From: Apostichopus japonicus
Taxonomy: Eukaryota > Echinodermata > Holothuroidea > Aspidochirotida > Stichopodidae
Assembly (NCBI RefSeq): GCF_037975245.1
Contig: NC_092570.1
Location: 6,987,001-7,051,000, forward strand
Length of the DNA: 64,000 nt
Reading direction: 5' to 3'
Made by a program: the position numbers and the translations under genes. The notes beneath the pieces are model-generated. The model searched no databases. It saw only the letters and a list, made by a program, of their open reading frames with translations, and was not told the origin of the DNA. The first letter of the stretch is position 1; each line of letters opens with the position of its first letter. Of this stretch, positions 3,594-47,812 are shown in pieces.

Positions 3594-6500
3594 ATGGCAG
3601 AGAGTTTAAATCCTGTTCAACATTACAATGGAAGAGAGGAGAGAAGCGATAGTTTACAGCGGAGTGACCAAGAATCGGACACGGAAGGCCAAGTAGGAAA
3701 CTCGTCTCAAAGTATGAAAGGATCACGGCCCAAGAAAAGTGCTTTCCAAATAACAAGTGTAGTGACAAAGAAGGCAGACAACAACCATGGTGCGGATGAC
3801 GTCGATAGTCAAGATGAACTAGAAGAAAGTAGAGTAGAGGAGGCCTCATCGTCTGAATTATTAGATATATCTAACCTTTCAAGGGCTAGTCAAAACTCTG
3901 AACTTGATAAATCTATAGTTGAAGATACTGTTCCAAGTGTATCTCTACCTGATAGGACAAGATTACCTGCTGATATAGTGAACATAGAGGAAACGGCATC
4001 GAATGATGGAACAGGCGAGACTAATGGTAATGGCCCTTCTAGATTTAGGGTGGTCAAAGTCCCAAATCCTGAGCCTGTTAAAAGGGGCAGATGGACGTGT
4101 AAAGATTTCCCTACTGAGAAGAATCAGGGACAGTTGATACAGGAGAGATCAGATATTAGCAAAGAAAACATTCACTCTGGGAATTCAAGTGCAGCAAGCT
4201 CTGTCCATTTTGTACCCGGTGAAAATGCGCCTGATCCATCTGGGGGTGGGACCGGAGAGGAGAAAGTGTCTGCTAAGAGGAGTGTCTCTCGTCAGACGAG
4301 TTCCAGGAAGACGAGTGTCTTGGATGAAATGGTTAAAACCATGATCACAGGAGACGAGTCAAAAGCTGTTGATGATGAGAGGTGGGTAGATCTAATTACT
4401 TTCTTGTTTTATTTTTCCTTTTGCACCAGAGAAATCATATGCGCTAGTTGAAAAGCTGTTTAAAGTAAGTCAAATCGTCTGAGGTGACTGATTTTCTACT
4501 CAACCATGTTATTTACAATCTTTGAGGCAGGCTTTCTATTTGATTATATATGTAAAATTTGCACTTGGATAACCAATGTGATTGGAATTTGAAACAAGAA
4601 AAAGCCAAGAGAGATAATCCAGGTTGTCCCAGGGATGATAAGGGTTCTACCCTATTTTAAAGGCAGACCTTTAGTTAGATATGATAGAAGGAGAAAGTGC
4701 AGACTGATTTCCTTATTCATGGATGATTGGACTGCCCTCAGCAGAAGACAATCCTTCAGCCGCAAAAAAATTGGTAGTTGTAACATGTATTGTACAGTAT
4801 GTATTTTAGATCCTCCTGCAGGCAGGAACTCACAAAGAAGCCATCATTGGCTTATCAAAAGCCGCAAGCTGACCGAAGTCATTCTCTTAGATTCATATTT
4901 AATGTCCATGATTATGAATTGTCAATTGTAAACAACTCTGTAACTGTATGACATACATTAATCTTGGAGTGACTCGAACCGGTTACAGTACAGTTACAGT
5001 ATGTCAGATGACAATCATAAAATTAGTAAAGATTTCAGATTTTTGAATGGAGTAAGTTAATGTTTATGTGCCATGTCGTTCTCTCCAGAGCACTGAGCTA
5101 TAATTTATTCTACAGTGTACACCACAGTGACATCATGCATTTTACCTGTACATTACAGTGTCCACTGTATAGTAGGACTTCTAGGTACATTGTTTTTGTC
5201 CACTAAATATTGTACAATATTGTACAGTACAACAGAACCTGCAAGTTTTTGTTCAGAAATGCAACTGTGACCTCTAACTCTACTGTGACCTCTTACGCGA
5301 TATTTCCCAGCCGGGCGGGAAATTATGGTTAATACCAGGAAATACTGGGGAATTAATGGTAAATATACAAAATAATGAGAAAAACAACTATAGGTAAACT
5401 GTGAGCAGTAATGACTCTGATTTGCATGGAATAGTAATCCAGTAAAACTCAATTACAGTGTAACTTACTAATTAGGTTCTTCATCTAATCATTCATATAA
5501 TTATAAAAGTTCGAACTTCAAACTGTGTAATGTTGAAGCTTAGCATGTTACTGGCTTCATTTTCTGCTGCATGGCTGTTAGTGCTTCTGAGCTTTCCAAA
5601 GTCATCCACCAGTTGTTTAATCCTGTTAGCACTCCCACCTACCTGTATGGTAGAGACATGACTTTCCAGAATGTAAACATTCAGATTTTTATCCACATTA
5701 CATAATCGACAGCATCCAATGACTATGATAAAATTGTTTTCATGCAAAAGAAGTTGGAGGAAAGTTGTTAAATTTTGCAGGTTTTGCAGGATTGTACATA
5801 GGACTTACAAGTTTTAATAACCTCTTTTTTTTTGTGGTCATTTTCTGGGTGATTTGGTTTGAGTTGCTGACATTATAATACTTTTACATGCATCAACAAT
5901 TTGAAAAACTGGAAAATATTCAGAAATATTTCCCAGTATATCTGCCACCTGTGGATAATTTATCCCTGGACGGGAAGTACCCGGCAGTGTTGACCGCACC
6001 AGTATTTCCCGGCCAACCTGCTCACTGCACAGACCTTTGTTCTAACTGTACATAGTCCAACAAAAGTCATGCAAAAACTGCTCTGTTCTCATTTCTTCAT
6101 GCCTTTTTTTTCTCCTTGTCATAGTTTTGCATTGTTTGGAGTATCACATTGTTCTGTGACATGTGAATGCCTTTAAAGCAGTTTGAAATTCTTTGTGCTG
6201 GAATAGTTCTAAATAAAGATTGAACATGCCAGCCTAAGGACAGCAAGTTGAATTCACATGGATCCATGACTATTGACTAACTGATAATTATTCTTTTCAT
6301 CGTATGAAATTTCTTTCATTGGAACCACCAATAAAGAAAAAAAGTTGGCATCAGGCAGTAATTGTGCATTTGATCAACACTATAAATTGCCATATGTTTT
6401 CTGCACATACAACAAGTTATATTACTGCAGAACACAGCAGATGTTCGCTGTGCAGTCTTAGTCTTTTGATGTCCAGGTAGAACTGCCATTAAAAGATGAA

Positions 6501-45222: not shown

Positions 45223-47812
45223 TTATGCGAGTCTTATGGACTGGATGAGCTGGAATATTGCTGCAAGAGAAAAAAAAGAGACATACAACATTGTATGGAT
45301 GTATTGTACAATAAGGCTGTAAACTAAAAAACTCAGAACGACGAAGCAAATATGGTCAAACAGAAAAATCAGGACAGCAATCTTGGTTGGTAGATCAACA
45401 AAATTATTATTTCAGTCTCCATGGTAATCTCTTTATTCCCTGTTTTTTTCTGCGGAAGTGGAGGGGTGAGGGGGGAAGACAACGAATGGATGTAACTTTT
45501 CATCACAGAAAAGAAAATCTTGTTGGCATTTATATGGTAAAATTTTTTGGTTTTGTTTAGTCAACAATAACCCATCATCCAATTTTCCTAGCTCTTCATC
45601 GGAATGGGGGACATGTAAAAGGAACGCTTTTGACTTCTTACCACACTTTTTTTACATCCATCCTCATTTGTACATTTGTCAGTGAGAGAAGTGAAATCCC
45701 AAATAAATACAAAAAGTTGACACATACCTGAGCCACAAACAACAAACATGAACAACGCTAACAGCCATGGTCCAACAGGGTACTTCTCTTCTTTTGCTCT
45801 CTGTTGCAAAAACAAAAGAAAAAAAAAATTAACAGAATTTGTTTTTAAAGGTAACTATGCATGAGAGACAATGATTAAATTGTTCATAACACACACACTC
45901 ACTCTCACAAGAACGTAAAATGATGACATAAGGGAGCAACAAAATTAGACAAATGTCTCAGTGTGCAAAAATACTTTAGAGGGTGAACCTAAAGTGCATG
46001 TTGAAGAACTATGTTTTACCCTTCCTACCCTTCCTTTGATCATATTTAGTAAGTTGCATAATGGGTACCATTACTGTGTACTACAACACAAGGTTTGATA
46101 ACACACCAAACAATAGGCACTAAATGACTATAGCATTTATACTTGTAAAATGGTATTATTTTTGTGAACTTCTACAACAATACATACCATACAATCTATT
46201 AACATTACATAACTTTAAATAATGGATGGATGTTTGCTTGAATTAATTGATAAATCAAAATAAAACAAAACTGTTAGCAAACTGCTTATCCGCTAAAGAG
46301 CCTGTGTAAGAGAATTTGTAAAAGTAAGTTGGCCTGACATTTTGATACTAGTAGGATCTTCTTCAGAGGCTGAATGACAAGTAACAGTAACAGATGGGAC
46401 AAGTACACGCACAGAATACAGAGAGGTTAATGAGCAGGTTGAACACAATGGAGGATTAAACAAATTTGGTGAGATTGTCAGTCTTATCCATTTGTAAAGC
46501 TGAAGTTTTTATGTGCACTGGCCCTACAATAACCATTAGAGTTCAATGAATTAAAAATATCAGCATCACATAAAGTAAAATCCCTGACTCGATGCCATTA
46601 GGAAATGTTTGTGTGTCTGGCTAGAAATTCTAGTTTTGATTTATTTTAAACTGAAGAAATTTGAGCTTTCCATAATTACATGTAGTAAAACAATTACTTA
46701 GACTTGAACAGTGGGTGTCCGGGTGTTGCAAAAAATATCCAAATTTAAGGCAAAACTTGGTGGATTGATTGCTACAACTTGCTTGAGATACAATTTTTTT
46801 TTATACTTTAGATGGTATTGATATTTACTTAATTTGGCCAAAACTGCATTTTAAATTCCCAAATGTGAGGAGTTTAAAAAGGAATCCGAGGATTGCGTAT
46901 CCAGCACAGTTTGCCAAAGTGGCATATAAGTAAAGGGCACGCAAAATCATACAAGCCAGAGCAGAAGTCTGTGGAATACTTGGTGAAAACATGAGTCACA
47001 AAAACACTTACTTCTTAACACAATCCATATTATTTTACTAATTTCTGTGGTTAGTTTTAGGAGATCTTAGTCATTGGAGTTGAATTAGAATTGTCATGCA
47101 TCAATGCGGTCACAAGTTGTTGGACAGTTTTAGTTTGCATCTGATATCAGAAATTGTGTGAACATTCTTTAGCTCATGAACACCTGGTACAGGTATCAGC
47201 TATTACAATTTGCATCCTCTTATTCTTAAATCTAACTTATCACAATTTGTACTTTTATAAATGTTCCCAAGAGTTTCATAGAAATTTCAGGAACTGCCAT
47301 CATGGACGTGCATATTTTCTGACTAAAACGCTTATGATACTCTGTTAGCAATAGTCCAGATATAGCAAGGTACTGTTTGGCCTACCCACAAATATGGTGG
47401 TTTGTCAATCAGCATTTACTAGTACTAAGTACTTGGCACAGCCCTAAATAACTTGACTTACTTACTTTCCACTCTTTAAGCGTTAGGGTCCTAAATTGGA
47501 TGTTGCACTGACGTGGCTTCCACTGCAGTGTTGGACTAGGGTCACAGAAGACCAACGTTGTGACATGCCTACAGAGTCGCTGTTACTTGTTAGGGTTTGG
47601 GCTGACTGAGTATGAACTAACAAGTATTAGACTACAAATACTAGGGTTAGGCTTAGCCTATCCGCAATCATTTTGGATATTTCAAACCCAAAAAGCTTAT
47701 AGTAACTTAGTAAGTGTCGGTTACATACCAAAGTCTTAGGAACATTTCCTCTCTTCTCGATGTTTTTAACGGCTTTGTCGTTCGCCCTCCTGATTTTCTG
47801 TGGAGCTGCCAT
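45223..47812 (-). CDS. SERP1: Stress-associated ER protein / ribosome-attached membrane protein 4
   Basis: Three coding exons on -: 47812-47729 (28 codons), 45800-45728 and 45260-45223. They join in phase 0 and then phase 1 to give 64 aa; vertebrate SERP1 is 66 aa. Exon 1 encodes [20 protein letters not shown] then RGNVPKTL, the basic cytosolic part. Exon 2 encodes [12 protein letters not shown], where the tail anchor begins with [12 protein letters not shown]. Exon 3 completes the anchor with [12 protein letters not shown] and a TAA at 45225-45223. The protein is a small tail-anchored ER membrane protein that sits at the Sec61 translocon and is linked to stabilising membrane proteins under ER stress. 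Vertebrates have two paralogs (SERP1 and SERP2); one ancestral-type gene is assumed here. It is convergent with TSC22D and divergent from PCID2. Confidence 0.95.
46259..46393. repeat. Interspersed repeat, partial copy of the 9.4-kb family
   Basis: It shares ACTGTTAGCAA..CTGCTTATCC, AAAGAGCCTGTGTAAGAGAA, GGCCTGACATTT and AGGATCTTCTTCAGAGG with 9440-9574. The right half of the 9.5-kb inverted repeat is missing. It lies in SERP intron 1 (45801-47728). Confidence 0.85.

Follow-up and report, generated by a model that had tools for sequence, protein, structure and literature searches.

The window analysed here is the whole 64,000-nucleotide stretch of Apostichopus japonicus contig NC_092570.1 (positions 6,987,001 to 7,051,000 of assembly GCF_037975245.1), which carries the genes TSC22D and SERP/RAMP4 on opposite strands. 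TSC22D is encoded on the plus strand by four coding exons (3594-37055, 544 amino acids) and SERP on the minus strand by three (47812-45223, 64 amino acids). Both spliced frames are complete, and GT-AG borders were found in 5/5 introns of the two models. Positions 3594 and 47812 are the A of the TSC22D and SERP start codons, respectively; as the span between them is bounded by start codons, both coding regions lie inside it and the promoters outside.

The first-pass annotation had described a convergent pair with no gene in between, which is confirmed by the complete models and by empty scans between the stops. The genes stand tail to tail with 8,167 bp between their stop codons (37055 and 45223). 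Six-frame Pfam scans of 37030-45240 recognised no gene there, Rfam at gathering scores gave 0 matches in the whole window and a tRNA scan gave 0 genes, so that none of these three scans found an intervening gene. The interval contains poly(A)-signal-like words from 37987 (plus strand) and from 45071 (minus strand).

The assembled TSC22D protein matched the TSC box model PF01166 with 63.7 bits (cut-off 30), residues 278-322 covering profile positions 1-45 of 57. According to passages of PMC12266122, the N-terminal motifs RFRV and RWTC typify the long TSC22D proteins (TSC22D1/2/4) and are absent from TSC22D3. The sea cucumber protein has the TSC box as well as both motifs and thus belongs to the long type. 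The long protein starts from exon 1, and its motifs are proposed binders of CCT domains in the NRBP1/WNK pathway. The SERP protein matched PF06624 (RAMP4) with 100.3 bits (cut-off 24) over profile positions 1-60 of 60; assignment to SERP/RAMP4 was based on such a full-length match in a protein of about 65 amino acids. In comparison to SERP1 of PDB 8rjb, 46/63 aligned residues are identical (E 1.4e-23). Genome-wide searches (671.6 Mb) returned one match for the TSC22 family and one for the RAMP4 family, both inside the window, where a missing match elsewhere does not equal proof of absence. Over the SERP start, CpG observed/expected peaks at 0.93 with 1-kb windows and at 1.21 with 500-bp windows. 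SERP is a small, independent protein of the translocon, and its gene probably has a CpG-rich promoter to itself.

Table 1 Features of the TSC22D-SERP locus (window positions) and block genes on the same contig, C10 (contig positions).
Feature	Position	Strand	Remark
TSC22D exon 1, long isoform, CDS part	3594..4381	+	GTGGGT donor directly after
R-phi motif A, RFRV, long TSC22D proteins	4041..4052	+	in frame in exon 1; motif per passages of PMC12266122
R-phi motif B, RWTC, long TSC22D proteins	4089..4100	+	in frame in exon 1; motif per passages of PMC12266122
TSC22D intron, 30.5 kb	4382..34833	+	holds 86 TACWGTA
CpG-rich stretch, candidate short-isoform promoter	33001..34750	+	CpG observed/expected
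Candidate alternative first exon, short isoform	34607..34879	+	ATG, 76 open codons in frame into exon 2
TSC22D exon 2, TSC box start	34834..34879	+	
TSC22D exon 3, TSC box and leucine zipper	35415..35585	+	
TSC22D exon 4, CDS part and stop	36426..37055	+	Gln/Pro/His-rich tail
Interval between the stop codons, 8,167 bp	37056..45222	.	no gene recognised
SERP exon 3, CDS part and stop	45223..45260	-	
SERP exon 2, hydrophobic segment	45728..45800	-	
SERP exon 1, CDS part	47729..47812	-	start codon at 47812
CpG-rich stretch over SERP start, probable promoter	47501..48750	-	CpG observed/expected
GTF2F2	C10, 3.66 Mb		
TPT1	C10, 4.27 and 4.31 Mb		
COG3	C10, 6.60 Mb		
TSC22D-SERP pair	C10, 6.99-7.03 Mb		
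SPRYD7 (13q14-type block gene)	C10, about 7.06 Mb		next recognised gene beyond SERP
MED4	C10, 8.76 Mb		
EIF2A	C10, 10.24 Mb		3.2 Mb from SERP

At the 3' end of the long TSC22D intron, CpG observed/expected rises to 1.13, whereas it averages 0.43 across 124 kb. The open run from the ATG at 34607 lies downstream of CpG-rich sequence; an equally long run precedes 690 of 28,878 intron positions. A short TSC22D protein would probably be made from a candidate second promoter at this end of the intron. A Pfam scan of the intron from 9900 to 34690 (with 4382-9899 outside the scan) recognised no gene and yielded a hAT fragment scoring just below its cut-off. A nepovirus-polyprotein score, weak (E 0.003) and below cut-off, was taken as chance. 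Rfam at gathering scores gave no known RNA in the intron that could serve as a reason for the linkage. The heptamer TACWGTA occurs at 2.8/kb in the intron versus 0.35/kb in 16 sampled loci. That the copies are pieces of one transposon is rejected, since they share no flanks (the best identity per flank has a median of 0.42 and does not exceed 0.48).

The human TSC22D1/SERP2 and TSC22D2/SERP1 pairs are presumably convergent as well, tail to tail; a literature search found no strand evidence for them. The neighbourhoods named in the first-pass annotation, TSC22D2 beside SERP1 and TSC22D1 beside SERP2, were both seen in mammalian gene lists, in each case as excerpted from the source. Cattle chromosome 1 reads "...SIAH2, ERICH6, SELENOT, EIF2A, SERP1, TSC22D2" (PMC12075139), cat A1 "...GTF2F2, KCTD4, GPALPP1, NUFIP1, TRNAE-UUC, TSC22D1, SERP2, SMIM2..." (PMC10969784) and cattle 12 "SERP2, TSC22D1, NUFIP1...COG3" (PMC12111605). 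Further lists (pig 11, cattle 12) name both members of a pair without showing them side by side. In human, a table in PMC10179231 places SERP2 at 13:44,947,801-44,971,850 and TSC22D1 at 13:45,007,655-45,151,283, and an excerpt of PMC13308242 describes a chromosome 3 variant, with SERP1 as nearest gene, near TSC22D2, EIF2A and SELENOT. The two families that adjoin in the sea cucumber are the same as those at mammalian 13q14 (TSC22D1-SERP2) and 3q25 (TSC22D2-SERP1), with one pair in the sea cucumber and two in mammals. The spacing differs, 8.2 kb between stops in the sea cucumber versus 35.8 kb between gene bounds on human chromosome 13. Both distances speak against an interaction at the transcript level, e.g., overlapping 3' ends, as what keeps the pair together. 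Such an interaction would suit the tail-to-tail layout, but the long interval with poly(A)-signal-like words within it leaves overlap unneeded and the human gene bounds stand well apart, making this explanation very improbable.

We ran nine family searches for genes of the mammalian TSC22D/SERP blocks, picked on the basis of the human map and, EIF2A excepted, named from the family model alone. Six of the nine were located, and five of these six lie on C10, the contig of the pair, which makes up 2.98% of the genome (binomial 1.4e-7, assuming independent gene placement). SIAH, a family common to both mammalian blocks, is on C16, not C10, and the searches for SELENOT, MED12 and NUFIP1 did not find these genes, leaving three of nine uninformative. 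An Rdx-family match on C4, considered as SELENOT, reads by eye as MIEN1 and not SELENOT, and eIF2A-family places on C19, read by eye as eIF3B, were left out of the count. The block genes are scattered across 6.6 Mb of C10, whereas TSC22D and SERP adjoin. EIF2A adjoins SERP1 in cattle but lies 3.2 Mb from SERP in the sea cucumber, where extended microsynteny of EIF2A and SELENOT at SERP was not found. The nearest left neighbours of the pair, a kinase and WDR73, appear in none of the mammalian lists compared.

Since C10 carries other genes of the mammalian blocks, shared ancestry is much more probable than coincidence, and the adjacency was very probably passed down from the ancestor that echinoderms and vertebrates share. 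Two unrelated genes would have stayed neighbours on a chromosome whose homology to the mammalian 13q14/3q25-type blocks can still be recognised. The comparison sets putative orthologues, adjacent in distant lineages, of one invertebrate genome, Apostichopus japonicus, against mammalian gene lists. Given 19,828 genes (PMC10344927) and a C10 gene number scaled by length, two named genes would adjoin by chance with a probability of about 1e-4 genome-wide, or 0.3% if both are on the C10 chromosome, and tail to tail in one quarter of those cases. These values make it scarcely credible that TSC22D and SERP became neighbours separately within the sea cucumber lineage, even though a single invertebrate stands in the comparison and the recognised outer neighbours, except for SPRYD7's chromosome, are unlike the mammalian ones. 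The earlier proposal that the linkage predates the vertebrate genome duplications is thus supported by the shared adjacency and the C10 block genes. The two mammalian pairs alone, however, already imply such an origin, so that the new information is its reach to the deuterostome ancestor.

As for why the pair persists, the account we favour as most likely is that local gene order within a conserved chromosome is rearranged slowly, with no selection on the pair. Regulation in cis, also raised in the first-pass annotation, is a possible but clearly less probable contributor: TSC22D enhancers, perhaps in the 30-kb intron, would act on or lie around SERP, forming a genomic regulatory block in which SERP is either the target or a bystander, which would add to descent and is compatible with it. 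The pair stayed adjacent while other block genes spread over C10, both mammalian duplicates also retained adjacency, and the intron is long with a striking TACWGTA density. A precedent exists in the PDI/RhoGDI pairs of echinoderms, nematodes and cnidarians, for which parts of PMC5722932 report coexpression evidence. Nonetheless, an enhancer that TSC22D carries in its intron is in itself no reason for SERP to be next door, SERP seems to have a promoter of its own, and where a chromosome is conserved some ancestral neighbours are expected to stay together by chance.

A stronger form, in which the adjacency is a regulatory lock more than 500 million years old, the intron with its internal promoter and, in Apostichopus japonicus, its exceptional TACWGTA array controls both TSC22D and SERP, and breakage of the pair is therefore selected against, we regard as unlikely. 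If true, an adaptor of stress signalling and a protein of the translocon would be under one control.

Slow rearrangement and shared regulation as causes of long-lived adjacency can be set against each other in this pair, a simple test bed. The finding contributes a gene pair with a clear date, of which the echinoderm yielded a single copy and mammals have two, and traces members of the vertebrate TSC22D and SERP families back to a single ancestral neighbourhood. In the titles, abstract openings and main-text passages retrieved from open-licence PMC papers on TSC22 or SERP genes, neither the pair nor its age was found as a topic.

Genomic regulatory blocks, which are defined by dense conserved noncoding elements and long-range enhancers, resemble TSC22D-SERP in that two genes have long stayed neighbours and a long intron is present. 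In Drosophila, we take bunched (bun) and the RAMP4 gene to lie on different chromosome arms. According to sections of PMC2253523, bun is, as in the sea cucumber, a single TSC22-family locus of an invertebrate, its long isoform shares with sea cucumber TSC22D conserved N-terminal stretches, and its transcripts have distinct 5' exons and likely separate promoters, whereas the sea cucumber short isoform is predicted. The PDI/RhoGDI microsyntenic pairs, as portrayed in parts of PMC5722932, differ in that their genes run in the same direction instead of tail to tail, and in that coexpression and protein contact were examined, while TSC22D-SERP is known here from sequence. Like TSC22D-SERP, they place the gene of an ER protein beside an unrelated gene and persist in echinoderms as well as among the vertebrate duplicates.

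The two gene models have GT-AG borders at all five introns, and their exons are listed in the table together with the other features of this part. Pfam assigned TSC22 (63.7 bits) to the assembled TSC22D protein and RAMP4, over the full length, to the assembled SERP protein (100.3 bits). Among solved chains, TSC22D was closest to 1dip, the delta-sleep-inducing-peptide immunoreactive peptide (28 of 45 residues identical), which we take to be a TSC22D3-type protein, and SERP to SERP1 (46 of 63). Exon 1 of TSC22D contains in frame both the RFRV and the RWTC motif, described for TSC22D1, D2 and D4 and as missing in D3 (PMC12266122). 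Because both motifs are present, the sea cucumber protein is of the long type. An 84-bp tandem duplication (87% match, 36287-36455) copies the splice acceptor region and the first bases of exon 4.

Coordinates of features in and beside the window
Feature	Position	Strand	Remark
TSC22D CDS, 4 exons	3594-4381, 34834-34879, 35415-35585, 36426-37055	+	encodes 544 residues
SERP CDS, 3 exons	47812-47729, 45800-45728, 45260-45223	-	encodes 64 residues
hAT transposase dimerisation domain-like fragment	16141-16299	-	just below its cut-off
Tandem repeat, 157-bp unit, 2.5 copies	22231-22613		in TSC22D intron
Kinase frame, uninterrupted, 275 codons	L008:6516-7340 (piece beside the window)	-	nearest ULK3 and TSSK6
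SPRYD7	L009/L010 (pieces beside the window), C10 about 7.059-7.061 Mb	-	next recognised gene past SERP

The first-pass annotation had TSC22D (+) and SERP (-) converging with no gene seen between them, and the gene models bear this out: six-frame Pfam, Rfam and ARAGORN returned nothing in the 8,167 bp separating the stop codons. Pfam found no family in 1-3590 and 47850-62290 either; these scans did not extend to 4382-9899, 62291-64000 or, apart from the SERP exons, 45241-47849. A search of the genome (671,581,487 bases in 35 contigs, the window being C10:6,987,001-7,051,000) gave one match each for PF01166 and PF06624, where absence of a further match does not prove absence. The published Apostichopus japonicus assembly is described with 671,643,915 bases, 34 scaffolds, 23 chromosomes and 19,828 genes (PMC10344927). 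A Tollip primer of this species (PMC8635487) has a single, exact match in the searched genome and its reversed control has none, in keeping with A. japonicus or a very close relative.

The large TSC22D intron (4382-34833) is rich in the word TACWGTA (TACAGTA or TACTGTA). The window holds 94 copies vs 11.6 in shuffles; 86 lie in the intron (2.82/kb, or 2.1/kb without the densest part, 7200-8120), at 4.27/kb in its 5' half and 1.38/kb in its 3' half, and three in 37056-64000. The 60 kb flanking the window contain 23, and sixteen 7-kb pieces from sixteen contigs contain 39 in 112 kb (0.35/kb; maximum 9, zero in six). Per 7 kb, the intron has a median of 17 (range 6-42); overall it is about eight times denser than the sampled loci. 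Roughly twofold of this excess is non-specific, since the control word ATGWCAT is itself about twice as dense in the intron (15 there, 24 in the 112 kb). Copying of one element was rejected as the source because the flanks of the sites differ; the sites may be a cluster of binding sites, remnants of short repeats that have decayed, or the product of a mutational bias.

At the 3' end of the intron, an ATG at 34607 begins a 76-codon open frame that joins exon 2 without a frame shift. Within the CpG-rich stretch 33001-34750 the observed/expected ratio reaches 1.13, compared with an average of 0.43 across 124 kb. Each of the two signs is modest alone, since an equally long preceding open run occurs at 690 of 28,878 intron positions (2.4%) and the 124 kb hold ten merged CpG-rich stretches. 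Their coincidence suggests an internal promoter and alternative first exon in 33001-34879, where a predicted short TSC22D isoform would start. A short isoform of this type is known in mammals and fly (PMC2253523). The N-terminus encoded by the candidate exon is rich in Cys and Lys.

For the flanks, frames of at least 75 codons were listed over 30 kb on each side, ten being analyzed by Pfam and some by PDB sequences. Going rightwards, the recognised genes are one with von Willebrand/fibrinogen domains (+), WDR73 (+), the kinase frame (-), TSC22D and SERP themselves, SPRYD7 (-) and a gene with armadillo repeats (-); unrecognised genes may lie among them. The kinase frame, which overlaps a strongly CpG-rich stretch, lies roughly 6 kb upstream from the start codon of TSC22D.

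The first-pass annotation had also likened the pair to two convergent human pairs, TSC22D2-SERP1 and TSC22D1-SERP2. Adjacency within both is upheld by mammalian gene lists; both human pairs are taken to be convergent. For the 3q25-type block, a cattle chromosome 1 list reads SIAH2, ERICH6, SELENOT, EIF2A, SERP1, TSC22D2 (PMC12075139). For the 13q14-type block, a cat A1 list reads SIAH3, ERICH6B, COG3, SLC25A30, TPT1, GTF2F2, KCTD4, GPALPP1, NUFIP1, a tRNA, TSC22D1, SERP2, SMIM2, and places SPRYD7 on the same chromosome (PMC10969784); a cattle 12 list agrees (PMC12111605). TSC22D1 and SERP2 are both present, at non-adjacent places in the list, for pig 11 (PMC8227816) and in a second, alphabetical cattle 12 list (PMC12350131). 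Coordinates in PMC10179231, whose excerpt states no assembly, put human SERP2 and TSC22D1 35.8 kb apart, and a leukaemia report mentions their joint deletion (PMC5396319). Because four families (SIAH, ERICH6, TSC22D, SERP) recur in both blocks, these are most simply read as copies that arose when the vertebrate genome was duplicated.

Nine gene families were picked from the human map of these blocks, and all nine occur in the mammalian lists (MED12 as MED12L). The intended gene was located for six, five of them on C10: EIF2A, checked against PDB 8dys, and GTF2F2, TPT1, COG3 and MED4, identified from the family model alone. SIAH, the sixth, is on C16. The genome search did not find the intended MED12 or NUFIP1 genes, nor one for SELENOT, whose sole family match, on C4, resembles MIEN1. 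C10 makes up 2.98% of the genome, giving five of six a binomial probability of 1.4e-7 if placement were independent. SPRYD7 was not preselected and was found on reading the flank beyond SERP. Two TPT1 (TCTP) places on C10, at 4.27 and 4.31 Mb, share one orientation with a spacing of 41 kb and are probably a tandem duplication. The block genes located on C10 span 3.66 to 10.24 Mb, so local order is unlike that of mammals, yet TSC22D and SERP are neighbours; chance adjacency of two genes is about 1e-4 genome-wide and 0.3% given the same chromosome.

These data are best explained if the adjacency was inherited from the ancestor of the deuterostomes, a reading based on one invertebrate genome and on mammalian gene lists. 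That the linkage predates the vertebrate duplications, as first proposed, is implied by the two mammalian pairs alone; what the echinoderm pair adds is an origin earlier than they had placed it. Selection may have kept the pair together; some neighbours are expected to survive without it. For the precedent, the PDI/RhoGDI gene pair, a functional link has been argued from coexpression and binding (PMC5722932); the evidence on the TSC22D-SERP pair is of gene order.
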